Shown here in pieces: positions 1 to 16,653 of a stretch of DNA of 30,348 nucleotides (its first letter is position 1; every line of letters starts with the position of its first letter). Under the pieces are notes generated by a model that had not been told where the DNA came from, did not search any database, and saw only the letters and a program-made list of their open reading frames with translations. Source of the stretch: an uncultured Clostridia bacterium (GTDB lineage: Bacteria; Bacillota_A; Clostridia; Christensenellales; Aristaeellaceae); assembly GCA_945871545.1 (NCBI GenBank), contig CAMBWJ010000002.1, forward strand, positions 1 through 30,348. Direction: 5' to 3'. Position numbers and translations under genes: made by a program.

Positions 1-8
1 GATGGTGC

Positions 9-14: not shown

Positions 15-20
15 GCACGC

Positions 21-186: not shown

Positions 187-268
187 AAAGTCGGTTTCAG
201 ATCTCCACGGTTCATGGAGGAAAGCGGCGAAGTGAAGCTTATATAGCTTGATTTGTTTTGGCAAAAAC

Positions 269-312: not shown

Positions 313-451
313 GTGCAACGGATGCGCTTGGAGAACCGGGGAAAAAGTCTGGGACGCGGCAGACATGTGGAGACTCGGCAGATCGCCGGGTTTACACAAA
401 TGCGAACGATCCCGCGAATGCGGATCGAAAATAATGAGGAGGGTTCAACCC

Positions 452-1987: not shown

Positions 1988-1992
1988 AGAAT

Positions 1993-2934
1993 ATGCGCCG
2001 CTATCTGATACAGAAAGTTCTCTCGCTGCTTCCGGTGCTGCTGGGCATCTCCCTGATCGCCTTTGTGCTGGGCGTGATTTCGCCGGGAAATCCGGCGGAG
2101 CTCGCCCTCAGCCGGGGCGGTTATGAGCCCACACCCGAACAGATCGAGGCAATGGAGCGTCAGATGGGCCTGGATGCGCCCTATCCCGTGCAATACCTGC
2201 GCTGGGTAGGGCGCGCGCTTACCGGTGATCTAGGTACGTCCTACGCCAGCAAGCTGCCTGTGGGCGCAGAATTGGCGCGCCGCCTGCCCGTCACCCTGAA
2301 GCTGGCGCTCTGCTCGATCCTTCTGGCGCTTGTGCTCGGCTTTTCCATGGGCTGCATCGCCGCAGCCTTTCATGAGCGGTGGCCGGATCGCGTGATTCGC
2401 AGCGCCATCAACATTCAGCTCTCCTTTCCGGCCTTCTGGCTGGCGCTCCTGCTCATACTTCTCTTTGCGGAAAACCTTCGCTGGCTGCCCACCAGCGGAA
2501 ACGGCGGCCTGAAGTACATGATCCTGCCCTCCCTCGTGCTCTCCTCGGCCAGCGCAGCCACGACGGCGCGACTCATTCGATCTGCGCTGCTCGCCGAGTT
2601 TGGCAAGCAATACTGCACCGCCGCGACGGCGAGAGGAATTTCAAGAAAGCGGCTGGTTCTGCAAAACGCGCTGCCCAACGCGGCTGTGAGCGCCGTGGCG
2701 CTGATGGGCAACTCCCTGGGCGGCATGCTCGGCGGATCGGTGATCATCGAATCCATATTTGCCCTGCCGGGAATCGGCAGCTATGCGCTGGACGCCATCA
2801 CGAACCGCGATTACCCCGCGCTGCAGGGATATGTGCTGCTGGCGGGGTGCATTTATGTGGCCGTTGCGCTGCTGGTGGACGTTGTGAGCATGCTGCTCAA
2901 TCCCAAGCTGCGCCTTGGAGGGAAAAGGATATGA
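1993..2934 (+). CDS. ABC transporter permease, DppB/NikB type (set 1)
   Basis: This 313-aa inner-membrane permease opens with the DppB signature: the N-terminal MRRYLIQKVLSLLPVLLGIS transmembrane segment, an ISPGNP motif, and the periplasmic loop MGLDAPYPVQYLRWVGRAL with GDLGTSY. The cytoplasmic EAA-type loop (TAATARGISRKRLVLQNALPNA, about residues 212-233) contacts the ATPase. About six membrane segments are visible, which is normal for the family. It starts 5 nt after the binding-protein stop and overlaps the next gene by 4 nt (ATGA). It pairs with the DppC-type subunit to form the channel. Confidence 0.93.
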   Translation: MRRYLIQKVLSLLPVLLGISLIAFVLGVISPGNPAELALSRGGYEPTPEQIEAMERQMGLDAPYPVQYLRWVGRALTGDLGTSYASKLPVGAELARRLPVTLKLALCSILLALVLGFSMGCIAAAFHERWPDRVIRSAINIQLSFPAFWLALLLILLFAENLRWLPTSGNGGLKYMILPSLVLSSASAATTARLIRSALLAEFGKQYCTAATARGISRKRLVLQNALPNAAVSAVALMGNSLGGMLGGSVIIESIFALPGIGSYALDAITNRDYPALQGYVLLAGCIYVAVALLVDVVSMLLNPKLRLGGKRI

Positions 2935-3755
2935 AGAATTCGAGGATGCGCCTGTTCATCGCGGCTGCGCTGCTGGGTGTCATTCTGCTGAGCAATCTGC
3001 TTGCACCCTGGATTGCGCCCTGCGATCCCAACGAAGCCAACATGCGCGTGCGCCTTCAGGGGCCCAGTCCGGAGCATCCGCTGGGCACGGACAGCCTGGG
3101 CCGGGATATGCTCAGCCGCGTACTCTACGGCGGCCGGTCCTCCATGCTCGTTGCGCTGGCGGCCACGGCGCTCTCCATGGCCCTCGGCATGCTTTTAGGC
3201 GTGCTCGGCGGCTACTACGGCGGCATGCCGGATTGGTGCATCACTGCCGTCGCCAACATCTTTCAGGGGCTTCCCGGCACCTGCCTGATGATCGCCATCG
3301 TGGGCGTGCTGGGCCCCGGCATTCCAAATTTGCTTCTGGCGCTGGTGCTCACCAGCTGGGCAGGCTTTTCGCGCATCGTGCGCACGGAGACCCTGCGCAT
3401 CCGCGAGGAGGCATACATTGAAGGCATGCGGGCCCTGGGCGCAGGCAACGGTCGGCTCCTCTGGCGGCATATCGTGCCGAACATGATGGCGAACATCATC
3501 GTCCTCTTTACCACCCGCATGGGCAGGTGTGTGCTCTCCATCGCGTCGCTGAGCTACCTCGGGCTGGGCATCAAGCCCCCCACGCCCGATTGGAGCGTCA
3601 TGATCTCCGATGCGCGTCTGAACTATCGCAGCGCGCCGCATCTGATCATCGTGCCGGGACTGTGCATCTTTTTGCTGCTCTTGTCCATCAACATGCTGGG
3701 CGACGCACTGCGCGATCTCCTTGACGTGCGCAGCAAGGAGGTGAAGGAGCTATGA
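2931..3755 (+). CDS. ABC transporter permease, DppC/NikC type (set 1)
   Basis: This is a 274-aa permease of the DppC family. The N-terminal hydrophobic helix ends in LLAPWIAPCDPNEAN, and the family motif HPLGTDSLGRDMLSRVLYGGR follows. The EAA loop (EGMRALGAGNGRLLWRHIVPNM) lies near residues 164-185. The ATG at 2931 has GGAGGGAAAAGG upstream and overlaps the previous stop (ATGA), which indicates translational coupling. The frame is open far upstream, but that portion lies inside the preceding permease gene and is not coding. It forms the channel heterodimer with the DppB-type subunit. Confidence 0.93.
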   Translation: MKNSRMRLFIAAALLGVILLSNLLAPWIAPCDPNEANMRVRLQGPSPEHPLGTDSLGRDMLSRVLYGGRSSMLVALAATALSMALGMLLGVLGGYYGGMPDWCITAVANIFQGLPGTCLMIAIVGVLGPGIPNLLLALVLTSWAGFSRIVRTETLRIREEAYIEGMRALGAGNGRLLWRHIVPNMMANIIVLFTTRMGRCVLSIASLSYLGLGIKPPTPDWSVMISDARLNYRSAPHLIIVPGLCIFLLLLSINMLGDALRDLLDVRSKEVKEL

Positions 3756-4666
3756 TCGAAATTGACGATCTTCGGATCACATTCCGGCTTCCGGGGGTGG
3801 ATGTGCGCGCCGTGGACGGCGTGAGCATTGCCTTTCCGGACAGTGAAATCACCGGCATCATCGGCGAGAGCGGCTGCGGAAAATCCGTGCTGGGACTTGC
3901 ACTGCTGGGACTGCTGCCGCCCTATGCGAGGGTGGAGGGCAGATTGACGATGGATGGCGAAGCACTCACGCCGGAGCGTGCACGCAGCCGCCTCGGCGTC
4001 GGCATCGGCCTGATTCCCCAGAATCCTGCCGAATCCCTGAACCCTGCGCGCACCATCGCCTTTCATCTGCGGGAAGCATTGCTGCCGCTGAAGCTCCCTT
4101 CAAAGGATGTAAAAGAACGTTCCGCCCGGTTGCTGCGGGATTTCGGCTTTGCAAGTCCCGAGCGCATCCTGCGCGCCTATCCCCACGAGTTGTCAGGGGG
4201 CATGCAGCAGCGCGTGCTCTGTGCGATTGGCTCGGCATGCGCGCCCAAATGGATGCTGGCGGATGAACCCACGAAGGGTTTGGACCGCGATCTGCGCGAT
4301 CAGGTTCGGGATACGCTGCGGTCGTTGAAGGATTTCGGCGTGGAAAGCATGCTCGTAATCACGCACGATCTTCCGCTGGCGCGGGAGCTGTGCGACAACC
4401 TGGCCGTCATGTATGCCGGGCAGATCGTCGAGATGGGGCCGAGGCTGCTGGAGCAGCCCATGCATCCGTACACAAGGGCCTTTTTGAACGCACTGCCGGA
4501 GAATGGCTTTCAGGCGATGGCCGGCGTTGCACCCCGGGCGGGCGAACGGCTTCCGGGCTGTCCATTTGCACCGAGGTGTTCCCATGCAAAGCCGCGCTGT
4601 CATCGGGAGCGTCCGTCCGAAACGGCTGTCAACGGCAGAATTGTGAGGTGTTTCCTGTATGCCTGA
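3752..4666 (+). CDS. ABC transporter ATPase, DppD/NikD type (set 1)
   Basis: This 304-aa nucleotide-binding subunit has Walker A GESGCGKS near residue 38, the Q-loop PQNPAESLNP, signature LSGGMQQR, Walker B MLADEPTKGLD and the H-loop THD. The C-terminal extension carries the oligopeptide/nickel ATPase domain motif GCPFAPRCSHAKPRC. The ATG overlaps the preceding stop by 4 nt and has AAGGAGG about 10 nt upstream. It energises import together with the next, shorter ATPase. Confidence 0.93.
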   Translation: MIEIDDLRITFRLPGVDVRAVDGVSIAFPDSEITGIIGESGCGKSVLGLALLGLLPPYARVEGRLTMDGEALTPERARSRLGVGIGLIPQNPAESLNPARTIAFHLREALLPLKLPSKDVKERSARLLRDFGFASPERILRAYPHELSGGMQQRVLCAIGSACAPKWMLADEPTKGLDRDLRDQVRDTLRSLKDFGVESMLVITHDLPLARELCDNLAVMYAGQIVEMGPRLLEQPMHPYTRAFLNALPENGFQAMAGVAPRAGERLPGCPFAPRCSHAKPRCHRERPSETAVNGRIVRCFLYA

Positions 4667-5327
4667 GTGCATTCTGGAGGGAAGGGACATATACAAAACC
4701 TTCCACAGCGGATTTGGCGGCAGGGCGCACACCGCGCTCAAGGGCGAGCGCCTGAAGCTGCACAGGGGAGAAACCCTCGCGCTGATGGGCCCGTCGGGCT
4801 GCGGCAAGAGCACCATGGCGCGCATACTGCTGCGTTTAATTGACCCGGACAGGGGTCGGGTATTCTTCTGCGGCGAGGACATTACGCATCTGCGGGGAAG
4901 CGCGCTGAAGCCGTTCCGAAGGCGCGTGCAGCTGATCTCCCAGCGCCCGGAAACCTTCTTTGATCCCCGGATGCGCTTGGGCGACAGCCTGTTGGAACCA
5001 CTCAGGATATTTGGTGTGACCGAAGAACAGTGCCGCCTGCCGGGGTTGCTGGAGCGGGTGAAGCTCACGGATGATCTGCTCCGCCGCTATCCCCATCAGG
5101 TGAGCGGCGGCGAAATCCAGCGGCTGTCCCTGTGTCGCGCGCTCCTGCTCGCTCCGGAAGTGCTGGTGCTGGATGAACCCACGTCCATGCTGGATGTATC
5201 CGTGCAGGCGCAGATCCTGCAGATTCTGAGGAGCCTTCAGGAGGAATATGGGTTGTCCTACCTGTTTATCACCCATGATCGCGAGGTCGCGCAGTATATG
5301 AGCAATCGAATCCAGTTTATGGAGTAG
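4659..5327 (+). CDS. ABC transporter ATPase, DppF/NikE type, short (set 1)
   Basis: This second ATPase of the transporter is 222 aa. It has Walker A GPSGCGKS, Q-loop ISQRPETFFDP, signature VSGGEIQR, Walker B VLVLDEPTSMLD and the H-loop THD. It overlaps the preceding gene by 8 nt. It ends shortly after the H-loop and lacks the roughly 80-100-residue C-terminal oligopeptide-ATPase domain usual in DppF. NikE-type proteins and the set 2 homologue here are similarly short, so this need not be a truncation. The operon ends at the terminator about 70 nt downstream. Confidence 0.9.
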   Translation: MPECILEGRDIYKTFHSGFGGRAHTALKGERLKLHRGETLALMGPSGCGKSTMARILLRLIDPDRGRVFFCGEDITHLRGSALKPFRRRVQLISQRPETFFDPRMRLGDSLLEPLRIFGVTEEQCRLPGLLERVKLTDDLLRRYPHQVSGGEIQRLSLCRALLLAPEVLVLDEPTSMLDVSVQAQILQILRSLQEEYGLSYLFITHDREVAQYMSNRIQFME

Positions 5328-5394: not shown

Positions 5395-5430
5395 AAAAAC
5401 CCGAGGGGAGCCGTACCCCTCGGGTTTATC
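5395..5430. terminator. Bidirectional intrinsic terminator
   Basis: A perfect 12-bp stem (5397-5408 pairs with 5416-5427) with a 7-nt loop lies between two convergent operons. The minus-strand transcript has a U-rich tail (TTTTTGCTT), and the plus-strand tail is TTTATCTAT. It ends the plus-strand transporter operon and the long minus-strand operon that finishes with cbiK. Confidence 0.88.
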
Positions 5431-5434
5431 TATG

Positions 5435-6166
5435 TCAGATGATCTTCCGCGCCTTTTCCACGAATCTTGTCTGCACCTCCTGCAGCGCGCCCAGGCCCTG
5501 CATGCGGACGCGCACATCGAAGCCGCGACGGGTCAGGATGGATTTCCAGGAATCCCCGTCGTCCCCGGCCATGTCGTTGCGGGCGTGATCCCCTGCCACC
5601 AGCATCAGCGGCATCAGTGCAAGGTCTTTGACCGGCAGGCGCTCCAGCTCGGGAAGCTGCTCTTCCAGGCTATGTTCACCCTCGACGCAGGCGAGGTACA
5701 CATTCTCCGGGAGCAGCTCCCGCAGGCGGGCGTAGGTCTCGTCTGCGGCGTGCTCGGTGCCGTGGCCCATCATCAGCAGGGGACGGCCCTCCTCCGCAGC
5801 GATCTTGCCCAGCAGACCGGCCATCCAGCTCAGATCCGCCTGCGTCTCCAGCAGCGGCTCGGACACGCGCAGGCCACCCGCCGCATCCTTCACCAGCTCG
5901 TACTCGATGCCGTGCAGGAAGTGGGTGGGCACGACGGCGATCTCTCCATAGTCCTCTCTGCGCAGGTGCTCCAGGGCCTCCGCTTCGCTCTCGATGGCGT
6001 CGCCGCGCTCCCGGAGCTTGCGCATGATGATGCGCGAGCTGTACGCCCGGCGCACATCGTGGCTGGGAAAGGCCTTTGCCAGGGCCGTTTCGACGGGCAG
6101 GATGCAGCTGCGCTCCGCCTCCGGGTAGCTGGTGCCGAAGCTGACGGCGAGAATTGCTTGTTTCAT
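5435..6166 (-). CDS. cbiK: Sirohydrochlorin cobaltochelatase, anaerobic type
   Basis: CbiK inserts Co2+ into sirohydrochlorin (or factor II) at the start of the anaerobic cobalamin pathway. The 243-aa protein begins with the family motif MKQAILAVSFGTSYPEA. The two metal-binding/catalytic histidines expected for the family appear as MGHGTEH (His135) and LVAGDHARNDMAGD (His194). There is no signal peptide, so it is cytoplasmic. An AGGAGG precedes the ATG, and the ATG overlaps the stop of the upstream ABC ATPase (ATGA). It is the last gene of the nitrogenase-like operon. No other corrin-ring gene is in the window, so its role could be synthesis from imported or endogenous sirohydrochlorin, or metal insertion into another tetrapyrrole. 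Confidence 0.93.
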   Translation of the reverse strand: MKQAILAVSFGTSYPEAERSCILPVETALAKAFPSHDVRRAYSSRIIMRKLRERGDAIESEAEALEHLRREDYGEIAVVPTHFLHGIEYELVKDAAGGLRVSEPLLETQADLSWMAGLLGKIAAEEGRPLLMMGHGTEHAADETYARLRELLPENVYLACVEGEHSLEEQLPELERLPVKDLALMPLMLVAGDHARNDMAGDDGDSWKSILTRRGFDVRVRMQGLGALQEVQTRFVEKARKII

Positions 6167-6933
6167 GTGCGAACCTCCTGTTCTTCTGTATAAAATAGGT
6201 ATTTATTGTCCGATGTCCGGCGCACGTCGATGGAAAAGACCCGCTGAATCTGTCCGGAGCGATAGACCTCCTCCGGGCTTCCCGCCGCGACGAGGCGGCC
6301 TCGCTCCATCAGCAGCAGGGAATCGGTATATTCCAGCGCCAGTGACAGCTCGTGCAGCACCAGAATCACGCTGCGGCCCTCCCTGCACAGCGCCCGCAGC
6401 AGCTCCATCAGCGCAAACTGGCTGGAGAGATCCAGATAGGCGGTGGGCTCGTCCAGCAGCATCACCGCCGCCTGCTGGGCAAGCATCATGGCGAGGTAGG
6501 CGCGCTGCCGCTCGCCACCGGAGAGCCGGCTCACGGGCCGGTTTGCAAGCGCACCGAGCTTCACGCGCTCGATGGCCGCCTGAACGATCTCCCGATCCTC
6601 CCGGCGCAGGCTCTGGCCCCACTTCAGGTGCGGGTAGCGTCCGTGGGTCACCAGATGGCGCACGCTGATGTCCGGCGCGATGCGGCTCTGGGGCATGTAG
6701 GACAGATGGCGGGCGCGCTCCTTCTCGGGGATGTCTGAGAGAGCTTGTCCGTTCAAGAGGATTTCGCCGCCGGAGGGCTTCATCAGGCCCACCGCACACT
6801 TCATCAGCGTGGACTTGCCGCAGCCGTTGGGCCCGATGATGGCGGTGAGCTTGCCGGGGGCAAGGTGCGCGCTCACGCCGTGCAGCGTCTCCACGCCGTC
6901 GTAGGCCGCGCGCAGTTCTCGAAATTCCAGCAT
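6163..6933 (-). CDS. Iron-siderophore/cobalamin ABC transporter ATPase (system 1)
   Basis: This 256-aa ATPase is of the FecE/BtuD type. It has Walker A GPNGCGKS (about residues 36-43), Q-loop YMPQSR, signature LSGGERQR, Walker B VMLLDEPTAYLD and an H-loop HELS. The ATG at 6933 is chosen for the GAGGAGG upstream and because the protein then starts exactly at the conserved MLEFRELRAAYDG strand. It lies 11 nt after the permease and overlaps cbiK by 4 nt. It is more diverged from the system 2 and 3 ATPases than those two are from each other. Confidence 0.93.
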   Translation of the reverse strand: MLEFRELRAAYDGVETLHGVSAHLAPGKLTAIIGPNGCGKSTLMKCAVGLMKPSGGEILLNGQALSDIPEKERARHLSYMPQSRIAPDISVRHLVTHGRYPHLKWGQSLRREDREIVQAAIERVKLGALANRPVSRLSGGERQRAYLAMMLAQQAAVMLLDEPTAYLDLSSQFALMELLRALCREGRSVILVLHELSLALEYTDSLLLMERGRLVAAGSPEEVYRSGQIQRVFSIDVRRTSDNKYLFYTEEQEVRT

Positions 6934-6944: not shown

Positions 6945-7943
6945 TCAGGTGGCGTCGTGGCGGCTGCGCTTCTTGCGGATCAGCAGCAGGTACAGGAAGA
7001 ACGGTGCGCCCACGATGGAGAGCACGATGCCCACCGGCAGCTCGAAGGGGGCGAAGGCCACGCGGGCGATCAGGTCGCAGATCAGGCACAGCGCCGCGCC
7101 GAAGGTTGCCGCGATGGGGAGCTGGAGCTGCGCGTCGTTCTTCAGCAGGATGCGGGTCATGTGGGGCGCAACCAGTCCCACGAAGCTCAACAGCCCGGCG
7201 AAGCTGACCGCAGCGCCCGCAAGCATGGCGGCGGCAACCAGAAACAGCGCCCGGAAGCGCTCCACCCGCAGGCCGAGGCTGTGGGCCACGTCGTCGCCCA
7301 GCGCCATCAGCTGAAGCTCTCTGCCAAAGACGAGGGCGGCGAGAAAGCCCATGGCGCACAGCGGCGCGGCAAAGCGCAGCTGCTGCATGGTTGTGGTGGA
7401 AAAGCCGCCGATGGAGAATGCGCTGCGGCTGACGACTGCCTCGGGGATCAGCGTGACGATGGCGTCCATGCACGCGCCGAAGATGCTGTTCACGGCGACG
7501 CCCGCGAGCACGATGGTGGCGCGGGAGGCCCCGGTGAGCCGCGCGAGAAGGTAGACGGCAAAGGCTGCGGCGCATGCGCCGAGGAAGGCTGCCAGCGAGG
7601 TCAGGCGGGACAGGCCGGGGAACACCGCCATGCAGATCAGTGCGCAGAGACCCGCACCGGAATTGATGCCGATCACGCTGGGCGCGGCCAGCGGGTTGCG
7701 CAGTACCGCCTGCAAAAGCAGTCCTGCCGCCGCCAGCGACGCGCCTGCGAGGATGGCGGCCAGCGTCCTAGGCAGGCGCACGTACCAGAAGATGCGTGCG
7801 GCGGTGCTCTCCCGGGCGGTATCTCCCAGCGCGGAGAGAATTTCCGAGGGCGAAAGGCCGCTTGCGCCCAGGCACAGGTTCATCAGCACCGCCAGCAGCA
7901 GGACGCCCAGGAGCATCAGCAGCAGCGCCCGGTTGCGGTTCAT
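6945..7943 (-). CDS. FecCD-family ABC transporter permease (system 1)
   Basis: This 332-aa multi-spanning permease belongs to the BtuC/FecCD family. Recognisable stretches are YVRLPRTLAAILAGASLAAAG, LQAVLRNPLAAPSVIGINSGA, LLSFVGLVAPHMTRILL and the C-terminal ELPVGIVLSIVGAPFFLYLL. About ten hydrophobic segments are visible, as expected for the family. The start codon overlaps the stop of the binding-protein gene (ATGA). It imports a cobalamin, siderophore or haem-type ligand; cobalamin regulation favours a corrinoid or related metal chelate. Confidence 0.93.
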   Translation of the reverse strand: MNRNRALLLMLLGVLLLAVLMNLCLGASGLSPSEILSALGDTARESTAARIFWYVRLPRTLAAILAGASLAAAGLLLQAVLRNPLAAPSVIGINSGAGLCALICMAVFPGLSRLTSLAAFLGACAAAFAVYLLARLTGASRATIVLAGVAVNSIFGACMDAIVTLIPEAVVSRSAFSIGGFSTTTMQQLRFAAPLCAMGFLAALVFGRELQLMALGDDVAHSLGLRVERFRALFLVAAAMLAGAAVSFAGLLSFVGLVAPHMTRILLKNDAQLQLPIAATFGAALCLICDLIARVAFAPFELPVGIVLSIVGAPFFLYLLLIRKKRSRHDAT

Positions 7944-8842
7944 CCCTCCGCCCCCTCGAGCACCTCCAGCATGAAGGCGTAGGACTCCGCCCAGCGGGCG
8001 TTGGGATGGTAGTGGAACAGGTCGCGGTCCAGCACGTAGAAGCGCCCCTCCCGCACGGCGCTGAGGGTGTTCCAGGCGGGATTTCCGGTCAGCACGGCGG
8101 TCAGGGATTCCTCGGCAGCCGCTGCGCTGGTGCCCTGCAGCACCACGAAGATGTAGTCCGGGTCCTCCACGAGCACGGTCTCCATGCTGATGCTTTCGCA
8201 GAGGGCGCTGTTGCCGTCGGCCAGGTTCTCAAAGCCCATGTCGCGCAGGATTGCGCCCGCCACCGTGCCCTCGCTGCTGCGCGCCTTGACGGTGATGGAA
8301 TTGGCGCGGATCAGCAGGGCGGTGGGATGCCGGTTCAGCGCCTGCGCCTCAGCCAGAATCGCCTCGATGGGCCGCTGCACCGTCTCCAGCTGCTGCTGGT
8401 AGAGATCCTCGCGTCCGGTGAGCCGGGTGAAGATGCGCATGCTCTCCATGTAATCGCGCCAGTCCTGGGTGGAGAAGAAGGCGCAAGGGATGTCCGCCTC
8501 CTCCAGCATGGCGGCGATGTCCACCTGGCTGGCCACGTCCGATGAGAGCAGCACGAAGTCCGGGTTCAGGGAGAACAGCAGCTCCATGTTCGGCTCGGTG
8601 TGGCTGCCCAGGTTCTGCACATCCTCGCCCAGCGCGTCGCCGTCGAAGGCGTCCGCAATGCTGCCCACCAGCGTGCCGCCAGCGGTCAACCACGCATCGC
8701 CGTAGGAATTGTAGAGGGAGACCACCCGCCGGGGATGCTCCGCGACCTCCACACTGCGGCCGTTTGCGTCGGTGAAGCTCAGTGCCAGCGCGGACGGGGC
8801 GCACAGCAGGGCAATCAGGATCAGACAAAGGAATTTCTTCAT
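7940..8842 (-). CDS. ABC transporter substrate-binding protein, BtuF/FhuD fold (system 1)
   Basis: This is a 300-aa periplasmic-binding-family-2 protein. The signal peptide MKKFLCLILIALLCAPSALA has an AXA-type cleavage site and no lipobox positioned before a mature Cys. The mature part begins with the family pattern FTDANGRSVEVAEHPRRVV, followed by the NPDFVLL motif. GGAGGT precedes the ATG. It starts 34 nt after the NifB-like gene and overlaps the permease gene by 4 nt, so the transporter is co-transcribed with the nitrogenase-like genes. The ligand is unknown. Confidence 0.92.
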   Translation of the reverse strand: MKKFLCLILIALLCAPSALALSFTDANGRSVEVAEHPRRVVSLYNSYGDAWLTAGGTLVGSIADAFDGDALGEDVQNLGSHTEPNMELLFSLNPDFVLLSSDVASQVDIAAMLEEADIPCAFFSTQDWRDYMESMRIFTRLTGREDLYQQQLETVQRPIEAILAEAQALNRHPTALLIRANSITVKARSSEGTVAGAILRDMGFENLADGNSALCESISMETVLVEDPDYIFVVLQGTSAAAAEESLTAVLTGNPAWNTLSAVREGRFYVLDRDLFHYHPNARWAESYAFMLEVLEGAEG

Positions 8843-8876: not shown

Positions 8877-9701
8877 TTACTTCACGCATCCGCCCGGTTC
8901 GCCCTCGCCGATCAGTCCGCAGGCGTCCGCCCGGCACTGCGCGCAGCGCCGGAACTGCGGGAGAATGGTGGACAGCTCGTCGCGCGCGCTGCGAAGCGCT
9001 TCCGCCGACGGCGACGGCCAGCCGGACAGGCGACCTGCGGGCTTCAGCGGCATGACGTTCATGATCGCCGCGCCGCGCTCATGCACTGCGCGCGCAATTT
9101 CGCGCAGCTCGCCGTCGTTGATACCGGGCACGAGCACCGTGTTCACCTTGACGGTCATGCCCGTCCTTGCGGCCAGCTCGACGCCGCGCAGCTGGCGGGC
9201 GATGGCCTCCCGCGCAGCCTCGATTCCCGTGAGAAGGTTGCCGCGCTCGTCCAGAATGTGATCGTTGAGCTGCGCGCCGGTCTCCGGACGCAGCGCATTG
9301 ACGGTCACGGTCAGAGTCTTCACGCCCAGCGACCGCAGCCGCGCCGCGTTCTCCGGCAGCAGAAAGCCGTTGGTGCCCAGGCACAGCCCCATCTCGGGAA
9401 AGCTCTGCTTCAGAAGCGCCAGAACCTCGAAGGTTTCCGGGTTGTACAGCGGTTCGCCGGGCCCGGCAACGCCCAGCACGCGCACCTCTGGATGGCATGC
9501 AAGGCGCTTGCGCACGTAGTCCACCGCCTCGTCCGGGCGCACGATCTGCATGGCCCGCCCGGGCAGCCGGGTCGCACCGTCATCCATGCCGCGCCCGCAG
9601 AAGGCGCAATCGAAGTTGCAGCGCGGCGCGCAGGGAATGTGCAGCCGACCGAACTGCCCGTGGGCAGCTTCGGAGAAGCAGGGATGTTCGCTGAGCTTCA
9701 T
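8877..9701 (-). CDS. NifB-like radical SAM protein
   Basis: This 274-aa protein matches the N-terminal catalytic half of NifB, which builds the 8Fe carbide precursor of nitrogenase cofactor. It has the N-terminal HPCFSEAAH (Cys8), the AdoMet cluster motif C28-X3-C32-X2-C35, GVAGPGEPLYN, LCLGTNG (Cys107), KVNTVLVPGINDGE, and the C-terminal CAQCRADA (Cys253, Cys256), which is highly characteristic of NifB. Two departures stand out. NifB normally has a Cys six residues after the last AdoMet Cys, and here that position is Asp41. There is also no NifX domain, although some NifBs lack it. The start overlaps the NifH-like stop (ATGA) with GGAGGG upstream. It could make a NifB-cofactor-like cluster for the adjacent D/K-like proteins or have diverged to another role. 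Confidence 0.88.
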   Translation of the reverse strand: MKLSEHPCFSEAAHGQFGRLHIPCAPRCNFDCAFCGRGMDDGATRLPGRAMQIVRPDEAVDYVRKRLACHPEVRVLGVAGPGEPLYNPETFEVLALLKQSFPEMGLCLGTNGFLLPENAARLRSLGVKTLTVTVNALRPETGAQLNDHILDERGNLLTGIEAAREAIARQLRGVELAARTGMTVKVNTVLVPGINDGELREIARAVHERGAAIMNVMPLKPAGRLSGWPSPSAEALRSARDELSTILPQFRRCAQCRADACGLIGEGEPGGCVK

Positions 9702-10543
9702 CGCGCATATCCCTCCTCCGATTGGGCGAACTGCGCCGCGATCCGCTCGCCGATGGCCTCCAGCGCCTCGGTGGAGAGCGGCTCGGGCACGGTGGTCTCC
9801 GCGCCGTGCAGCATTTCGTCCGCGATGACCTCAAAGGCCCGCGCAGCGGCGGAATCCGGTTCGCACTCGATGACCGTACTGCGGCGCATCTCCGCGCGGG
9901 AGATGGCCCGATCCAGCGGAACGCGCCCGGCGATGCGCGTTCCCACCGCGCGGGCGAAGTCCGACGCGGCGGATTCGTCGCCCACGGCGCTGCGCTCGTT
10001 GTAGATCAGTCCGCCCAGCCTGCATCCGCCCCGGTCGGCGTACTTGCGGATGCAGCGGCAGATGCCGTTCGCCGCGTACAGCGACATGTAGTCCGAGGTG
10101 GTGACGATGTAGGCCGCCTCGGCGACCTTCTCCCGCAGCGGCGTGCTGAAGCCGCCGCAGACCACGTCGCCCAGCACGTCGTAAAGGATCAGATCCGGCG
10201 CAAATTCCTCGACGATGCGCAGCTCCTGGATGTCCTTCAGCGCCAGCGCAATGCCCTTACCCGCACAGCCCTCGCCGGCGCGCGGCCCGCCGGACTCCAT
10301 GCACAGCACGCCGAACGCGCCCTCGTGCGCCGCATCCGCGCGGGTCAGCCTGCCGCCCAGACGGGCGTGAACGTCAAGGATCGTCTCAATTCGCCCGTGC
10401 ATCAGCACCCGAGTGGTGTCCGCCTTGGGATCGCAGCCCACCACCATCACCCGGTTTCCGGCCTTTGCGGCGGCGGCTGCGGCGTTGGCCACCACCGTGG
10501 ACTTGCCGATGCCGCCCTTTCCATATATGCAAACTTTTCTCAT
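9698..10543 (-). CDS. NifH-like nitrogenase-family iron protein (ATP-dependent reductase)
   Basis: This 281-aa Fe protein belongs to the NifH/BchL/CfbC superfamily. As a homodimer it carries one [4Fe-4S] cluster and passes electrons, with ATP hydrolysis, to a D/K-type partner. The P-loop GKGGIGKS is at residues 8-15, switch I is CDPKADTT, and the cluster ligands are ESGGPRAGEGC (Cys93) and LGDVVCGG (Cys129). The Arg that is ADP-ribosylated in some NifH proteins (GCAGRG) is Lys96 here. The ATG at 10543 is set by AAGGAGGT upstream; the longer open frame runs into the preceding gene and is not coding. It lies 11 nt after the K-like gene and overlaps the NifB-like gene by 4 nt. Confidence 0.95.
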   Translation of the reverse strand: MRKVCIYGKGGIGKSTVVANAAAAAAKAGNRVMVVGCDPKADTTRVLMHGRIETILDVHARLGGRLTRADAAHEGAFGVLCMESGGPRAGEGCAGKGIALALKDIQELRIVEEFAPDLILYDVLGDVVCGGFSTPLREKVAEAAYIVTTSDYMSLYAANGICRCIRKYADRGGCRLGGLIYNERSAVGDESAASDFARAVGTRIAGRVPLDRAISRAEMRRSTVIECEPDSAAARAFEVIADEMLHGAETTVPEPLSTEALEAIGERIAAQFAQSEEGYAR

Positions 10544-10554
10544 GGCGACCTCCT

Positions 10555-11742
10555 TCAGGGATTGAACCGCCCGTGGCGGCGGTAGGGCAGCGTCAGCAGC
10601 GCGTTGAGGATGTCGGACAGCAGAAAGTCCAGCCCATCGAAGCCCGCGTAGGGCTGATACCCCAGCGCAACCGCGTCCATCACCGGATAGGAAAAGCGGA
10701 TCAGCCGCGCGGGAATCTCGTCCTCCACCTGCCGCTGAAAGCTGGAGCCGAAGGCCAGCACCGTGCCCGAGCACCGCACCTGATCCATCCATTCGCCCGC
10801 GTCGGCGGACGGGTCGCGGTCGTCCATCTCCGCAGAGATTCGCAGGCCCAGCTCGCTTCTCAGAAACGCGGACATCGCCTGCGCGCGCATGAAGTCGCCC
10901 GCCACCGCAGCCTCTGCCTGATAGATCAGCCGCAGCGGATGCAGTGCCTTCTTCGCAGATTCCGCCGCATGGGCGAGTCCCGCTTCGATCTCCGGGCCGT
11001 GATCCGTGCCCAGCGCGGCGTCGATCTTCGCAAGGAAGCTCCGGCTGCCCTCCGCGCCGTAGGGATAGTCCACGGCGATGTAATCCATGCCCAGACGCGC
11101 CTTCAGCGCCTCGCCTACATCCTCAAAGCCCCGGAACACCACGTTCAGCCACGCCGCGCCGAAGCGGCGCATGGTCTCCTCCGTCAGCACCGGCAGCATG
11201 GCGTTGAGCCGGACCTTCGGCTCGAGCATCCGCCGGATCGACTCCGCGTCGGCTTCAGATCGGAAGTCGTCCTCCGCAATGCCGATCAGGTTGACCGACG
11301 GCTCCGGCGTTTTCTCTCCGCACGTTGGAAGTTCCCCGGCGAGGAAGCGCATGGCGTCGATGTAGCCCTGCCGCATGCTGCCGCAGTAGCCCGCCGTGTT
11401 CATCCAGCGCACGGGAAACGGGCAGTCCGCCGCGTCGATGCAGCCCTGAATGTCGTCGTGGATCATGTCCGACGGACAGCCGTTGAGCACGAACACCCGG
11501 CGCGGCGCGTGCGCCTTCAGAATCTCCAGCGCCTCGCGCAGCTTGTCCTCGCCGCCAAACACGATCTCGTTTTCGTGCATCATCGTGCAGGCCTGACGCA
11601 CGTCGTCGGCGCGGCCCATCTGGTGCAGCGCCAGCGCGCCCCAGGAGCAGCCCGACACCGAGTGGATCAGCAGAAACGCGTCCTGCACGCTGGACAGCGC
11701 GCGGTACGCACCCAGATAGTAGCATCCCTGAAACGGTTTCAT
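10555..11742 (-). CDS. Nitrogenase component 1-like protein, NifK-like subunit
   Basis: This 395-aa protein is of the oxidoreductase/nitrogenase component 1 family. It keeps three cysteines in P-cluster positions: Cys7 (FQGCYYLGA), Cys32 (SVSGCSWG) and Cys89 (LNGCPSDMIHDDI). The spacings of 25 and 57 are very close to those of NifK Cys70/95/153. FGGEDKL follows the second Cys, as in D/K proteins. The C-terminus (FSYPVMDA then GFDGLDFLLSDILNALL) also resembles the NifK end. The N-terminus is very short: the first cluster Cys is residue 7. It starts 2 nt after the D-like stop, with AGGGGG upstream. It should form a heterodimer or tetramer with the D-like protein. The substrate is unknown. Confidence 0.9.
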   Translation of the reverse strand: MKPFQGCYYLGAYRALSSVQDAFLLIHSVSGCSWGALALHQMGRADDVRQACTMMHENEIVFGGEDKLREALEILKAHAPRRVFVLNGCPSDMIHDDIQGCIDAADCPFPVRWMNTAGYCGSMRQGYIDAMRFLAGELPTCGEKTPEPSVNLIGIAEDDFRSEADAESIRRMLEPKVRLNAMLPVLTEETMRRFGAAWLNVVFRGFEDVGEALKARLGMDYIAVDYPYGAEGSRSFLAKIDAALGTDHGPEIEAGLAHAAESAKKALHPLRLIYQAEAAVAGDFMRAQAMSAFLRSELGLRISAEMDDRDPSADAGEWMDQVRCSGTVLAFGSSFQRQVEDEIPARLIRFSYPVMDAVALGYQPYAGFDGLDFLLSDILNALLTLPYRRHGRFNP

Positions 11743-11744
11743 GC

Positions 11745-13295
11745 TTATCGCCCCCTGTTCTGCCAGAGCCTCTGCCACAGCTCCCGCGACGCGGCGGCGC
11801 TGTCCCCGGCGAGGTGCGGGTAGAGCTCCGGTTCAAATTCTGCGCGGTGGATCAGCAGCCTGCCGCCGGTGGGATATTTTCCCAGATTCGCCGCCAGCAT
11901 CTCCGCACCCCGGCAGAGGTTCTCGAAATCCAGCGCCGTGATGAACAGATCGTCGGCTATCACCGGCTTGTCCGGGCACAGCCCGTGGACGAACTCGTCG
12001 CCAATCACCAGATCGGTTTCTCGGAGAATCTCCCTGAGCTGCGCCTCGTCCGGGTTTACGGTGAGCTCGCAGCGCAGATCGCACAGCTCCATGGCCTTTC
12101 GGACGTTCTCCAGCGCGCTCCGGGCCATCTCGTCGTCCATGTCGTTGAGCGCCAGACGCTTTGGTTCCATCCGGGCCACCACATGGGCGACGGGAATGCC
12201 CGCGCCCTTCACCGCCTGCACCAGCAGGTTCGGCAGCTGGTTGAACATCCGCGGCATCAGCAGCACGCGCTGTCCCCGGTACGCTTCCGAACAGGCGGCG
12301 AGCCGATCCCGGGCGCAGTCGATGTGCCGCGCAAAGACTTTATCCACATCGAAGTTCAGCCCCATCGTCTGCGCGATCTCACGATAAAACTGGAGTATGC
12401 CGTCCAGGCCCGTGTAGCGGGCGAAGCCGTGGATGTGCATGTACGGCGTACCGAAGCGCTGGTTCAGCGCCTTCGCCCAGCGCACGCGCCGCGCGATGTT
12501 CAGCTGGGCGGCGGGCGCGCGGACGATCTCCGCCGCCGTGCAGTTGGGCAGACAGTTCAGCAGCCGCAGGTTCATGTGCCACAGCATGCCGTCCATGCCC
12601 TCCAGAAGCGCGCGGCCGCCATAGCCCCAGGCATAGCCCTCCACATTGACCGTTCCGGGCAGCGGCTCCTGCGGCTCCATCAGCTGCTCGGCCAGTGTCA
12701 GCATCGCCTCGGAGAAGCCGCAGCCCTTGTAATCCGACGACGCCGGGGCGCAGGCCTTGCCCCAGCTCTTGAGCATGTCCTTTCGCCCGGTGCGCATGAC
12801 CGTCTTGTCGATGTGGGAAAACACCTCGGATTCCACCGCCAGCACCGGACAGCCCGTCTCCGCACGCAGCTGGCGTGCGAGACCCGTCAGGTCGCACTGC
12901 ATCACGTCGCTAGTCACCGTGGGAATCAGGATCACGCAGCCCGGCTTCCGTTCGGCAATGACGCGCCGCGCCAGCGCCATCAGTTTGTCCTCGCCGCCGG
13001 TCACCACGTCGGCCTCGGTCAGGTCGCTGGATTCGATATTGTACGCGGGCAGGTAGCGCCGCCGTGCGAAATAGCGGTAGTGGTACGCGCAGCCCTTCGG
13101 CCCGTGGAGTATGATCGCCGCGTCCTTGATCTGGGAAAACGCCGCCAGATTGCCCGCCACCTTGCCGTTCACGCCCTGCATGTGGTTCACCGCGGCCATG
13201 TGTATGCCCATCAGCACCCGGTCGCGCTCGTATTCGTAGAAATGATCCAAAGAATCGACCTGCCTTTCTGCCTGTCTGCGTCCAACGGCGTTCAT
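11745..13295 (-). CDS. Nitrogenase component 1-like protein, NifD-like subunit
   Basis: This protein is about 516 aa. The family signature near residues 56-105 is IKDAAIILHGPKGCAYHY, followed by TGGEDKL. Only the middle P-cluster-type cysteine (Cys69) is present. The position about 26 residues before it (GVNGKVAGN) has no Cys, and the third position reads TVTSDVMQC with a Cys shifted to 134. No Cys is seen in the segment equivalent to the FeMo-cofactor Cys275 region (APAAQLNIARRVRWAKAL), although a CLPNC pair lies about 20 residues earlier. The start is uncertain. ATG 13295 has no good ribosome site; TTG 13250 has AAAGGCAGG upstream, and a TTG at 13376 also keeps the frame. It pairs with the K-like subunit encoded 2 nt downstream. 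Confidence 0.88.
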   Translation of the reverse strand: MNAVGRRQAERQVDSLDHFYEYERDRVLMGIHMAAVNHMQGVNGKVAGNLAAFSQIKDAAIILHGPKGCAYHYRYFARRRYLPAYNIESSDLTEADVVTGGEDKLMALARRVIAERKPGCVILIPTVTSDVMQCDLTGLARQLRAETGCPVLAVESEVFSHIDKTVMRTGRKDMLKSWGKACAPASSDYKGCGFSEAMLTLAEQLMEPQEPLPGTVNVEGYAWGYGGRALLEGMDGMLWHMNLRLLNCLPNCTAAEIVRAPAAQLNIARRVRWAKALNQRFGTPYMHIHGFARYTGLDGILQFYREIAQTMGLNFDVDKVFARHIDCARDRLAACSEAYRGQRVLLMPRMFNQLPNLLVQAVKGAGIPVAHVVARMEPKRLALNDMDDEMARSALENVRKAMELCDLRCELTVNPDEAQLREILRETDLVIGDEFVHGLCPDKPVIADDLFITALDFENLCRGAEMLAANLGKYPTGGRLLIHRAEFEPELYPHLAGDSAAASRELWQRLWQNRGR

Positions 13296-13405: not shown

Positions 13406-14170
13406 CTAACGCATCGGATGATAGACGATATTGATCTGTCCGTCCGGCTCGGAGCGCACATCCGCATCCACCTCGTAGAGCCTGCGGATGAGCGCAGGCG
13501 TGAGCACCTCGCGGGGTGTGCCGCTGGCGACCACCCGCCCGCCGTCGACTGCAAAGATGCGGTCGCAGTACATGGCGGCGATGTTCAGGTCGTGAAATGC
13601 GGCCAGTACCGTCACACCCAGCTTCTTCACCACGTCCAGAATTTGAAGCTGATACTTGATGTCCAGATGATTGGTCGGCTCATCCAGGATCAGGCACTCC
13701 GTCTGCTGGGCGAGGGCGCGCGCCAGGATGATTCGCTGCTGCTCGCCGCCGGACAGCGTGGAGAAGATCCGGTCGATGAAGCCCAGCATCCCCACGCGGC
13801 GGAGCGAATCCTCCACGATGTCGAAATCCGCCTTTGTGTCCCGCTCCATCATCCGCTTGTGCGGGGAACGACCCATGAGCACGATGTCCCGGACGGTAAA
13901 TTCAAAGTTGTAGTAATTGTGCTGGGAGAGCACGGCCAGTCGCTTTGCCGTCTCCCGCACGGAAAATGCGCTGATCGGCGCATCGTCCAGGAGGATGTCA
14001 CCGCCGTCAGGCTTCAGCACGCGATAGATGCACTTGAGAAACGTGCTCTTTCCGCTGCCGTTGGGCCCGATCACACCCACAAACTCCCGGCTCCGCACGT
14101 CGATGCCGATCTGATTGAGAATCTGCGTGCCGCCAAAGGAGAGCTCCACGTTTTCCGCATGAATGTTCAC
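13406..14170 (-). CDS. Iron-siderophore/cobalamin ABC transporter ATPase (system 2)
   Basis: This 254-aa FecE/BtuD-type ATPase has Walker A GPNGSGKS, signature LSGGEQQR, Walker B LILDEPTNHLD and the H-loop FHDLN. The start is GTG at 14170, which overlaps the permease stop (GTGA) and has GGGAGGG upstream. It is closely similar to the system 3 ATPase: both have REFVGxIGPNGSGKST, MGRxPHKR and the C-terminal tail with NIxYH. It is the last gene of system 2 and lies about 110 nt before the nitrogenase-like genes. Confidence 0.93.
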   Translation of the reverse strand: MNIHAENVELSFGGTQILNQIGIDVRSREFVGVIGPNGSGKSTFLKCIYRVLKPDGGDILLDDAPISAFSVRETAKRLAVLSQHNYYNFEFTVRDIVLMGRSPHKRMMERDTKADFDIVEDSLRRVGMLGFIDRIFSTLSGGEQQRIILARALAQQTECLILDEPTNHLDIKYQLQILDVVKKLGVTVLAAFHDLNIAAMYCDRIFAVDGGRVVASGTPREVLTPALIRRLYEVDADVRSEPDGQINIVYHPMR

Positions 14171-15255
14171 GATTTTCCCTCCCCGAAGCCGTAGGACTTG
14201 CGCACCAGCAGGTAGACGAAACAGGGCGCACCGATGGCCGCGACCAGGATGCCCAGCGGCAGCTCGCTCTTGGGGATGATGATGCGGCAGGCCACGTCCG
14301 ACCAGATCAGGAACACCGAGCCGAGCAGCGCGGAGAGCGGCAGCAGCCGCTTGTGATCCGTGCCGAAGAGCATGCGCACCACATGGGGAATCATCAGACC
14401 CACGAAGCCGATCATGCCCGTGCAGTACACCGTCAGTCCCACCAGCATCGCCGAGAGCACCAGATACAGGTGGCGGTAGCGCAGCAGATCCGTTCCAAGG
14501 GTCACCGCCACGTCGTCCCCCAGCAGCATCAGATTGAGCACCCGGCTCTGCGTGATGAAGAACAGCGTGATTATCAGAATGACCGGCAGGACAAAGGCGA
14601 TGTTCTCCCACTTGGAACCGGCCAGGCTGCCCATCAGCCAGAAGGTGATGGACTGCATGCCCTCCCTGTCGTCCGCGATGTAGACGATGAAGTTTGAAAT
14701 CGCCGAGCACGCCGACGACAGCGCGGTACCCGCCAGCAGGAGACGTATGGAGCTGGAGCGCCCGCCGATGTTGGCCACGATCTGCACGAGGATCGACACC
14801 GCCAGCGCGCCCAGAAACGCGCAGATGCCCATGGCGTTGGCGCCGAATGCGGTGACCACGCCCAGCAGTGCCGCCACCGTCGCGCCCAGGGTCGCGCCGG
14901 AGGAGATGCCCAGGATGTACGGATCCGCCAGGGGATTGCGGACAATCGCCTGCATGACGCAGCCGGACACCGCCAGCGCCATGCCCACGCCCACGGCCAT
15001 GATGACCCTCGGCAGGCGAATGAACCAGACGATGTCGTAGAGCTTTCCGGAGCCAAAGACCTGCACATCCCCCACGCCCAGCAGCTTGTGGAGGATCACG
15101 CCGTAGACCTCGCCCACGCTGAGCGGAACGCTGCCGAAGGTCACCGCTGCCAGCACCGACACGACCAGCGCGGCGAGCAGAACCAGTATCGCCACGACAT
15201 AAATTGGCCTGCCGTGAAACAGGCCGCTCTTCAAATCGATCCTTGGGGTTTTCAT
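14167..15255 (-). CDS. FecCD-family ABC transporter permease (system 2)
   Basis: This 362-aa permease has the BtuC/FecCD hallmarks FIRLPRVIMAVGVGMALAVSG, MQAIVRNPLADPYILGISSG, GFVGLMIPHVVRML and SELPLGILVAAIGAPCFVYLL, with about ten hydrophobic segments. The ATG at 15255 is preferred because GAGGAGAA lies just upstream; a second ATG 15 nt earlier has no ribosome site. The C-terminal KSYGFGEGKS tail is shared with the system 3 permease (KNYGFGGD), supporting duplication of the two systems. Confidence 0.93.
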   Translation of the reverse strand: MKTPRIDLKSGLFHGRPIYVVAILVLLAALVVSVLAAVTFGSVPLSVGEVYGVILHKLLGVGDVQVFGSGKLYDIVWFIRLPRVIMAVGVGMALAVSGCVMQAIVRNPLADPYILGISSGATLGATVAALLGVVTAFGANAMGICAFLGALAVSILVQIVANIGGRSSSIRLLLAGTALSSACSAISNFIVYIADDREGMQSITFWLMGSLAGSKWENIAFVLPVILIITLFFITQSRVLNLMLLGDDVAVTLGTDLLRYRHLYLVLSAMLVGLTVYCTGMIGFVGLMIPHVVRMLFGTDHKRLLPLSALLGSVFLIWSDVACRIIIPKSELPLGILVAAIGAPCFVYLLVRKSYGFGEGKS

Positions 15256-15274
15256 GGCCGTTCTCCTCATAGAG

Positions 15275-15302
15275 CCGGTTCCGGCCGTCAGGCCGGAACC
15301 GG
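15275..15302 (-). other. Intercistronic hairpin after binding-protein gene (system 2)
   Basis: A perfect 12-bp G+C-rich stem (15275-15286 with 15291-15302) and a 4-nt loop lie between the binding-protein stop and the permease ribosome site. No U-run follows on the minus strand. Such hairpins usually protect the upstream message from 3' exonucleases and keep the binding protein in excess over the permease. Confidence 0.7.
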
Positions 15303-15310: not shown

Positions 15311-16285
15311 TTATTCGTACAGATCGGGGTACAGACCCGCGCCGAAGGTCTGGATGGCGTCCATCATGTGCAGTCCGGGGCAGTAGACCTGCACCAGGTT
15401 CAGCGCATAGACGTCGCCGTTCTGAACGGCCTTCAGGCTTGCAAAGGCGGGATTGTCCACGATGGAAGCCACGGCCTCCTCAGGCGTGATCCAGCCCTCG
15501 TACCAGATCATGAAGAGCTTGTCGGGATCGGCGGCGATCAGATCCTCCGCGCCGATGTTCGCGCTGTCCTCTGCACCCACGGCCAGCTTTGCACCCACGG
15601 CTTCGGCGATGTTGCCGCCGATGGTGGTCGTGCCGTACACGCGGTAGGAATCGCTCTCATCCTCCAGAATCGCCACGGTCATGGGCTCCAGACCCTTCTC
15701 CTCCATGTAGGCCACGACCTTGTCGATCTCGGCGTACATCTCGTCCACGATAGCCTGCGCCTCGGCAGTCTTGCCGAACATCGCGCCGATGTTCAGGATG
15801 TCCTCCATCTCGTTTTCGACGGTCTGGCCGTCCTCGAGACCCTTCATGTTGCCGCCGCTGTTGTTGGCCATGTAGGTGGCCACGCCGCGCTCGTTCCAGA
15901 AGGTCGTGTCGCCCATGCGGTCGTCGGCAAACAGGGAGCGCCAGCCGATGATCGCGTCGGGCTCCAGCGCAATGACCTCCTCCTGGGAGGGACGCGCATC
16001 GTAGTAGGGAATCTTCGCAAACTCGTCGGCCAGCTCGCCGGTGATCTCCTCGTCCAGGCCGAAGGCGCAGACGATGCGGTCGGCCAGACCGAGGCGCAGC
16101 ATGATCTCAATGTTGTCCTGATAGCCAACGACCACGCGCTCAGGCGCCTGTTCGACGGTCACCTCGATGGGTTCCTTGTTGTAATTGAAGGTCGGAATGG
16201 TTACGGGATAGGCCTCCGCAATGCCCGCCAGCGCGGAGAGCGCCACAAGCAGTGCCAGGATCAGGGTGAGAAGCCGTTTCATCAT
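15311..16285 (-). CDS. ABC transporter substrate-binding protein, BtuF/FepB fold (system 2)
   Basis: This is a 324-aa periplasmic-binding-family-2 protein. The signal peptide MMKRLLTLILALLVALSALAG ends in an AEA-type SPase I site, with no lipobox. The mature part has the family features QAPERVVVGYQ, the LGLADRIV motif and EPDAIIGWRSLF. AAAGGAGGT precedes tandem ATG codons; either could be used. It is the first gene of the operon controlled by riboswitch RS2. It is the same length as the system 3 binding protein and shares the N-terminal YPVTI motif and the PERxV region with it. The ligand is unknown; the regulation suggests a corrinoid or related chelate. Confidence 0.93.
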   Translation of the reverse strand: MMKRLLTLILALLVALSALAGIAEAYPVTIPTFNYNKEPIEVTVEQAPERVVVGYQDNIEIMLRLGLADRIVCAFGLDEEITGELADEFAKIPYYDARPSQEEVIALEPDAIIGWRSLFADDRMGDTTFWNERGVATYMANNSGGNMKGLEDGQTVENEMEDILNIGAMFGKTAEAQAIVDEMYAEIDKVVAYMEEKGLEPMTVAILEDESDSYRVYGTTTIGGNIAEAVGAKLAVGAEDSANIGAEDLIAADPDKLFMIWYEGWITPEEAVASIVDNPAFASLKAVQNGDVYALNLVQVYCPGLHMMDAIQTFGAGLYPDLYE

Positions 16286-16333: not shown

Positions 16334-16370
16334 AAAAAAGCCGCATCGCTCCTACGGGAACCAATGCGGC
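16334..16370 (-). terminator. Riboswitch attenuator terminator (RS2)
   Basis: The arms GCCGCAT and ATGCGGC (16364-16370 and 16340-16346) enclose a 17-nt loop that can pair partly, followed on the minus strand by TTTTTT (16339-16334). It lies between the cobalamin aptamer and the binding-protein gene and is the likely expression platform. Confidence 0.82.
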
Positions 16371-16430
16371 AAGAAAGGCAAGCACAAAAACACCGCGCAT
16401 CCTGAACTCGAGGAGCACCTGCAAAACCCA

Positions 16431-16598
16431 TCGACCAATGTGTTCTGACTCAGGCATCATCGCAGCGCTTTCGCCTTCCCGGATTGCTCCAGTGACCGGT
16501 TTTGTTCAAACCATGAAAGCCGCTCCGCCAATACAGCAGCGGTCCTGTGCGGGATTCTCACCCGACTTCCTGCGTCTCCAAGACGCAAAATTTATCGA
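16431..16598 (-). promoter_or_regulatory. Cobalamin riboswitch (RS2)
   Basis: On the minus strand the conserved aptamer blocks occur in order: GGTGAGAATCCCGCAC, GGACCGCTGCTGTA, GTCACTGG, CCGGGAAGGCGAAAGCG, then GATGATGCCTGAGTCAGAAC. A small hairpin (TGCGTC/GACGCA) lies just inside the proposed P1, as in RS3. The P1 closing bases (ATCGA at 16594-16598 with TCGAC at 16431-16435, plus-strand reading) are approximate. It controls the long operon carrying the nitrogenase-like genes. Confidence 0.93.
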
Positions 16599-16624
16599 CA
16601 GGCTATGAAATTGTAATCGTATAT

Positions 16625-16653
16625 ATTATATTCCTGGCGGGCGTGAAAGTCAA
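16625..16653 (-). promoter_or_regulatory. Sigma-70-type promoter for the RS2 operon
   Basis: On the minus strand, TTGACT (16653-16648), a 17-nt spacer and a perfect TATAAT (16630-16625) form a near-consensus promoter. The transcript would start about 20 nt before the aptamer. The stretch 16654-16889, between this promoter and the system 3 ATPase, shows no gene and no convincing terminator, so read-through from the upstream operon is possible. Confidence 0.85.

Follow-up and report, generated by a model that had tools for sequence, protein, structure and literature searches.

The described relatives of nitrogenase serve N2 fixation and cofactor assembly, tetrapyrrole synthesis and sulfur assimilation, according to two reports (PMC12552129, PMC11423573). 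The first describes for Mar a six-cysteine P-cluster and an [Fe8S9C] cluster bound by Cys270 and His429 of MarD (PMC12552129); the second describes Cfb as lacking a NifK homologue and IsrB as closest to BciD (PMC11423573). We describe here four nitrogenase-like genes, D, K, H and B, in a stretch of 30,348 nt (the window) of contig CAMBWJ010000002.1 from an uncultured Clostridia bacterium. They encode a nitrogenase-family two-component reductase together with its own NifB-like protein, and lie in a minus-strand gene run with two chelate-type importers and CbiK. Sequence comparison sets D and K apart as an apparently undescribed, conserved clade of nitrogenase-like reductase. Our preferred reading, to which we give a probability of roughly 0.4, is an ATP-driven reductase that would be made under B12 shortage and would handle an imported cobalt compound, with the cobalt released from its chelate. 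The D-K clade ties the nitrogenase fold to the B12 and cobalt economy of gut and rumen bacteria, and could add a metal-acquisition role to the nitrogenase superfamily.

Of the 29 open reading frames (ORFs) in the window that were scanned with Pfam, eleven form the minus-strand run, which extends from the promoter and riboswitch side (16653-16334) to a terminator behind cbiK (5397). Its features are:

16625..16653, minus strand: sigma-70-like promoter, TTGACT-17-TATAAT (11/12 consensus matches)
16420..16610, minus strand: cobalamin riboswitch aptamer (RF00174, 60.7 bits; gathering threshold 31.5)
16334..16370, minus strand: hairpin GCCGCAT/ATGCGGC followed by TTTTTT, likely the riboswitch terminator (expression platform), from sequence, terminator scan and predicted fold
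15311..16285, minus strand: periplasmic-binding-type protein 1, Peripla_BP_2 (PF01497, 3.2e-18)
14167..15270, minus strand: FecCD-type permease 1 (PF01032, 1.4e-92)
13406..14170, minus strand: ABC ATPase 1 (PF00005, 2.3e-30)
11745..13250, minus strand: NifD-like subunit D, 501 aa (PF00148, 1.4e-38; start from homologues)
10555..11742, minus strand: NifK-like subunit K, 395 aa (PF00148, 8.6e-54)
9698..10543, minus strand: NifH-like ATP-dependent reductase H, 281 aa (PF00142, 1.1e-87)
8877..9701, minus strand: NifB-like radical SAM protein B, 274 aa (radical SAM, 9.3e-22; TIGR01290, 3.2e-70)
7940..8842, minus strand: periplasmic-binding-type protein 2 (PF01497, 7.1e-32)
6945..7943, minus strand: FecCD-type permease 2 (PF01032, 7.9e-88)
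6163..6933, minus strand: ABC ATPase 2 (PF00005, 7.4e-33)
5435..6166, minus strand: CbiK-like sirohydrochlorin cobaltochelatase (PF06180, 1.8e-58)
5397..5427, minus strand: intrinsic terminator, likely the operon end (12-pair stem and T tail)

As the original prediction had it, the NifD-, NifK-, NifH- and NifB-like genes are consecutive and nearly overlapping: their Pfam matches are far beyond chance, and spacers of 2 nt and 11 nt are followed by a 4-nt overlap. The set had been placed at 8877..13295; the 8877 end stands, and the other end moves 45 bases downstream, to a TTG at 13250 that is the likely D start and at which several homologues begin. Its location between two FecCD importers, upstream of cbiK and behind an RF00174 riboswitch, was borne out. 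The CbiK-like protein scores 198.4 bits on PF06180, above the gathering threshold of 26.2, and 170 on the NCBIfam equivalog, below the cut-off of 400.

Control of D-K-H-B by the riboswitch is supported by the promoter-like pair, the hairpin with its T run and the terminator behind cbiK. The promoter and terminator scans are consensus matches with counts near the shuffled mean, and it is position that carries the argument; as shuffled sequence would be expected to give 2.1 promoter-like sites where the region has three, the promoter call is notable only for standing directly ahead of the aptamer. The consensus scan of the minus strand from 17000 to 5200 found no further promoter-like site besides 16653-16625. 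Four weaker intragenic minus-strand terminator-like sites (15225, 12407, 11696 and 7261; 5-8 pairs), at about the shuffled level, speak against a single transcript. A perfect 12-pair hairpin at 15275-15302, between binding-protein gene 1 and permease gene 1, is possibly an attenuator or mRNA stabiliser.

The riboswitch recurs at related loci. A motif scan of one genome per species, which favours close relatives and is not a random sample, gave 13 loci. In 12 of them RF00174 precedes D on the same strand (in L005 it is cut by the contig end); L013 (Selenomonas artemidis) is the only locus of that scan without it. The riboswitch lies 149-223 bases ahead of the D match in L003, L004, L005 and L012, the distance in L012 being 151 bases. 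At the other eight loci, same-strand importer matches fill 54-98% of the distance between the two, and nothing matches on the opposite strand; among the larger gaps is one with a TonB receptor frame (L008), and two solute-binding frames lie in L007. Given the number of riboswitches and the size of the genomes, 0.14 of 12 genomes would be expected to carry one within 10 kb upstream by chance, against 11 of 12 observed. Eleven further loci have no cobalamin riboswitch inside the stretch fetched, and a permissive Rfam scan of five Negativicutes loci gave no cobalamin match. For one of the eleven, L035, a genome-wide scan detects a same-strand riboswitch of 48.9 bits immediately past the edge, ahead of a TonB-Opp-TonB-D-K-B run; L031, L033, L036 and L038 are cut by contig ends; L029, L030, L032, L034, L037 and L039 have none. 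The total including the window is 14/25, or 14/21 without the four contig-cut loci. The expected link to cobalamin control thus holds in the motif scan and for these 14 loci, and does not extend to a sub-clade formed by L029, L030, L032 and L039 (0/4). There no H, B or riboswitch adjoins the D-K pairs, and all four are found in the vicinity of FecCD importers (about 9 kb off in L032), with an HTH_17-PBP_like regulator in L029, L032 and L039; L030 lies beside nif-like genes. This riboswitch-less sub-clade is a hint at another metal.

D and K score far under every NCBIfam cut-off listed. D scores 68.7 on nifE (cut-off 505) and 47.5 on nifD (653), and K 82.7 on DPOR_BchB (490); H reaches 279.6 on CfbC (402) and 198.6 on BchL (345). 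A tree was built from 64 proteins (D, K and references); in it a single branch sets off the 23 D (100/100), a second one sets off the 22 K (100/99), and both groups are separate from nifD, nifE, nifK, nifN, bchN, bchB and a Mar-like pair; the references are few, some branches are long, no certified Mar, Isr or Cfb D is among them, and the Mar-like reference L048 was assigned from its O-acetylhomoserine sulfhydrylase neighbour, not by assay. Against the references used, these separate clades and the riboswitch link agree with what had been proposed, an uncharacterised nitrogenase-family reductase that is probably expressed under corrinoid shortage. The protein search gave 48 relatives of D among the matches listed, of which 18 share 51-97% identity with it, 29 share 28-35% and one shares 25%, and a profile built from 21 diverse D returned the same 48. 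The predicted D structure (mean predicted local distance difference test score 79.6) aligns with structures of Mar, Bch, Nif and NifE at Z scores that differ by less than 1, so that no clade is favoured by the fold. For H, the nearest outside group in its tree is P0162 and P0163 (Methanococci; PRK13230-type) with P0164 (support 94/98); P0162 and P0163 exceed the cut-offs for PRK13230 'nitrogenase reductase-like protein' and nifH, whereas window H does not. A 99%-identical homologue of window H is labelled Aristaeellaceae, which points to the probable host of the window. Searching H against plasmids with tblastn supplied reference sequences only, and a plasmid megablast with 12 kb returned a single record, a 47-base match to bchL. 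A literature search covering few subscription journals found no description of such a system; existing group IV classifications may name it.

Each described system differs from D-K-H-B in some respect. DPOR and COR (BchLNB, BchXYZ) are set apart by model scores far below the cut-offs and by the NifB-like partner present here. CfbCD, which acts in F430 synthesis, belongs to a tetrapyrrole pathway with a CbiX/CbiK-type chelatase; H stays under the CfbC cut-off, and a K is present. IsrBHDK resembles our locus in its four-gene BHDK set and nearby ABC importers, whereas B here matches NifB structures (7bi7, 7jma, 7jmb, 6y1x) at about 1e-70; no Isr sequence is in the trees. B scores under the cut-off of TIGR01290 nifB despite its E-value, and that score is not decisive for NifB identity because the B of a nif cluster misses the cut-off too (330 against 344).

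Under our preferred reading, scarcity of cobalamin would let transcription pass the riboswitch, and the importers would bring in a cobalt-bearing compound. H would pass ATP-driven electrons to DK via a [4Fe-4S]-type cluster with three cysteine ligands from K and one from D. Reduction of the imported compound by DK would make the cobalt in it usable, most likely by freeing it from a tight chelate. The freed cobalt would then be handed to CbiK for corrinoid synthesis. As the substrate we infer a chelate, or else a corrinoid. The enrichment of the hosts in CbiD, which belongs to de novo corrinoid synthesis, is best matched by a need for cobalt, rather than for ready-made corrinoid, and the presence of cbiK in the window operon agrees. 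Among 23 D-bearing genomes, CbiD and CbiJ occur in the same 19 and CobS in 20. Outside Negativicutes, CbiD was found in 11/15 D-bearing genomes against 60/243 sampled from the class of G012 (Fisher p 1.9e-4), a sample that is not lineage-matched, one of the 15 hosts (G006) being labelled Chloroflexi; Negativicutes hosts have it in 8/8 cases, a figure that stands without a measured base rate for Negativicutes. CbiM is above the cut-off in 10/23 D-bearing genomes, which is uninformative on cobalt supply. Simple salvage by B12 auxotrophs is disfavoured by the CbiD enrichment.

The importers bear on the cargo. The window holds five, namely three PBP/FecCD systems and two Opp/Nik-type operons that flank the region:

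6-5327, plus strand: Opp/Nik-type importer operon with its own cobalamin riboswitch (106 bits)
25232-19837, minus strand: Opp/Nik-type importer operon with its own cobalamin riboswitch (106 bits)

Window OppB reaches 333 on the 'nickel ABC transporter permease' model, where the cut-off is 350, and the best match of OppA1 is NikA (190 against 393). These importers are of the same transporter families as BtuFCD/FecBCD and NikABCDE/CntA. Beside D-K in other genomes, FecCD and Opp-Nik systems alternate, with TonB receptors added in Negativicutes. Five such receptors from relatives' loci were compared: four are best on a siderophore-receptor model (two above cut-off) and one on a heme model, none is near BtuB (at most 93 bits on the TonB-B12 model, cut-off 599.7), and one matches BauA and FemA structures. 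The original prediction named an imported corrinoid or metallo-tetrapyrrole as a possible substrate; by sequence, the importers that accompany D-K elsewhere show more likeness to nickel/cobalt-chelate and siderophore systems. In Flavonifractor plautii (L012, 3-8577, minus strand), five tandem genes resembling window OppA2 by BLAST stand behind a second riboswitch, divergent from D-K-H-B.

Several observations weigh against a cobalt-chelate reductase. The scores listed for the window importers all fall below equivalog cut-offs; OppA1 also resembles heme-binding, glutathione and dipeptide proteins, an oligopeptide model gives the top score for OppA2, and permease 1 has a likeness to BtuC (245 against 334, the best BtuFCD score, alongside 276 against 437 on F420-0 permease). 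Because of these likenesses, the cargo may be a corrinoid or something else. The riboswitch accompanies just 14 of 25 loci, with four more cut by contig ends. Four of the 23 D-bearing genomes have neither CbiD nor CbiJ, possibly as incomplete assemblies. The gene cbiK stands in the window operon only, with no CbiK match in the relatives' loci searched. A dedicated NifB is also not obviously required for metal-chelate reduction.

Some of these points would suit a corrinoid reductase, with importers that carry corrinoids and an HDK that acts on the corrinoid itself, by reducing cobalt to Co(I), removing an axial ligand or reducing a ring bond, so that scavenged analogues could be adenosylated or remodelled. 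Such an enzyme would explain the cobalamin riboswitch at 12/13 loci, the BtuC-like permease and the scores of window importers on 'corrinoid ABC transporter ATPase', and it would suit the four hosts without CbiD and CbiJ, two of which (G007 and G679) still have CobS. The kin DPOR, COR and CfbCD act on tetrapyrroles, according to a published report (PMC11423573). Against it, the TonB receptors are of siderophore (4/5) or heme (1/5) class and far from the B12 model, and the hosts mostly make corrinoids. Opp/Nik-type importers are also not known to carry corrinoids. Overall we regard a corrinoid reductase as possible but rather unlikely.

The residues of D and K raise a further question. With NifD columns located through motifs of NifD, the Cys275 column holds Arg in 23/23 D, and the His442 column holds no His in the 21 D with a residue there (two gaps). 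D keeps one of three P-cluster cysteines: that at Cys88 is present in 23/23, Cys62 falls in a gap in 23/23 and position 154 is Cys in 1/23. K keeps all three (21/21, 21/21 and 22/22). The natural reading of this pattern would be a four-cysteine [4Fe-4S] cluster on three K cysteines and one D cysteine, as in DPOR and NifEN. His23, His57, His146 and Cys177 are invariant in 23/23 D and absent from the six references compared, which makes them candidates for a substrate or cofactor site. An equation of Cys177 with NifD His195 was dropped, as the column is two residues off, behind a stretch of about 30 residues missing in the references.

Five motifs of NifB (HPC, CxxxCxxC, CxNExRPG, Cx(S/G)(T/S)NG and CxxCRADAxG), all occur in 13 of 17 aligned B proteins. 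Window B, L001 and L044 have lost CxNExRPG and kept the other four, and L034 is without the last; the cysteine lost in the window's B sub-clade is a cluster ligand of NifB. In these same three proteins a shared Cys in 'H(I/V)PCA' precedes the radical SAM motif, and the C-terminal part carries a shared GC(V/I)K. As NifB-like genes are retained in 21/23 D-bearing genomes and the motifs in 13/17, the D-K enzyme probably needs a NifB-type product in most hosts, though the known anchors are missing, and this is the main puzzle. A report on methanogens describes NifB as essential in species that lack nitrogenase genes, and the MCR activation complex as containing potential [8Fe-9S-C] clusters (PMC12176620), so that a NifB product need not occupy a classical site. 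PF00142 matches occur in 22/23 D-bearing genomes, and in eight (G002-G007, G009 and G010) the sole match found is the H of this gene set; the sole NifB-like match found also comes from it in seven of them, none being found in G005, where the contig ends. Such genomes could provide a clean system for asking what NifB does without the known cofactor ligands.

The same genomes and the 13/17 B proteins with all five motifs could also be cited for an enzyme that spares B12. A reductase like Mar or Isr, acting on an organic substrate, would in this case replace a B12-dependent pathway, e.g. by providing methanethiol for methionine. Mar and Isr combine HDK with a radical SAM protein and belong to the same superfamily (PMC12552129, PMC11423573). 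D here nevertheless carries Arg in 23/23 at the Mar Cys270 (NifD Cys275) column and keeps a single P-cluster cysteine, two differences from MarBHDK (group IV-A). Mar has a sulfur role, whereas D-K-H-B has cobalamin control and chelate import. The operon holds no sulfur-metabolism gene, and the importers transcribed together with D-K-H-B belong to metal-chelate and B12 types, joined by TonB receptors in diderms. The suggestion in the original prediction that the enzyme replaces a B12-dependent reaction is not supported, given these importers and the cobaltochelatase, and we judge this reading improbable.

A more novel reading is a nitrogenase-family metal-chelate (metallophore) reductase that would strip cobalt from imported chelates under the cobalamin riboswitch, with a cluster from the dedicated NifB held by novel ligands such as His146 and Cys177; the riboswitch-less sub-clade may do so for another metal (e.g. 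molybdenum). We consider this combination unlikely.

A missing corrin-ring step, e.g. a substitute for the CbiJ reductase, has in its favour cbiK in the same gene run and the cobalamin control; CbiJ co-occurs with D in 19/23 D-bearing genomes, and the four without CbiJ also lack CbiD, so this reading was rejected as very improbable. A nitrogenase, or a cofactor maturase such as NifEN, is practically negligible given the Nif scores far under cut-off, the absence from D of the Cys275 and His442 ligands of the Nif/Vnf/Anf DK proteins, the place of D and K outside the Nif clades, and the lack of nifE, nifN, nifV or molybdate genes among the 29 window ORFs; N2 fixation had been called unlikely, and these results agree.

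The D family is rare and scattered, with D in 4/391 genomes of one class, 8/250 of another and 2/394 of one order, counts that include the genome or genomes on which a sample centred or that were already known. Hosts are gut and rumen bacteria, among them the cultured strain Flavonifractor plautii ATCC 29863 (L012). Left out of the counts were, for D, L031 (cut) and L037 (two open pieces); for K, L002, L004, L008 and L037 (cut, broken or second copy); and for B, L005 (cut). The B of L034 was aligned, though it diverges from the family in its C-terminal portion. A broken copy in Flavonifractor (L004, 3590-4188) lacks most of K together with the start of H, K is split over two reading frames in Phascolarctobacterium (L008, 11473-12693), and D is in two pieces in a second copy of G529 (L037, 7952-9382).

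In Negativicutes hosts whose operon has no H, a NifH-like gene was found elsewhere (L045, 8791-9000; L037, 1989-2792; L041, 8175-8951; L042, 7109-8149). Such genes have D/K-like neighbours in L037, L041 and L042, and might serve D-K in trans. In the L001 host, an 816-codon frame (L043, 6273-8720, minus strand) joins NifH-like and NifD-like domains beside a weakly BchB-like gene, and is perhaps a natural H-D fusion of another nitrogenase-like system. Within the window, the open frame of the second OppA, listed at 796 codons, includes a long N-terminal stretch. On the minus strand at 25978-30348 are VanW/SH3, C39-peptidase, SpoVG-like and TraG P-loop genes, which suggest that the importer cluster borders on a conjugative element.

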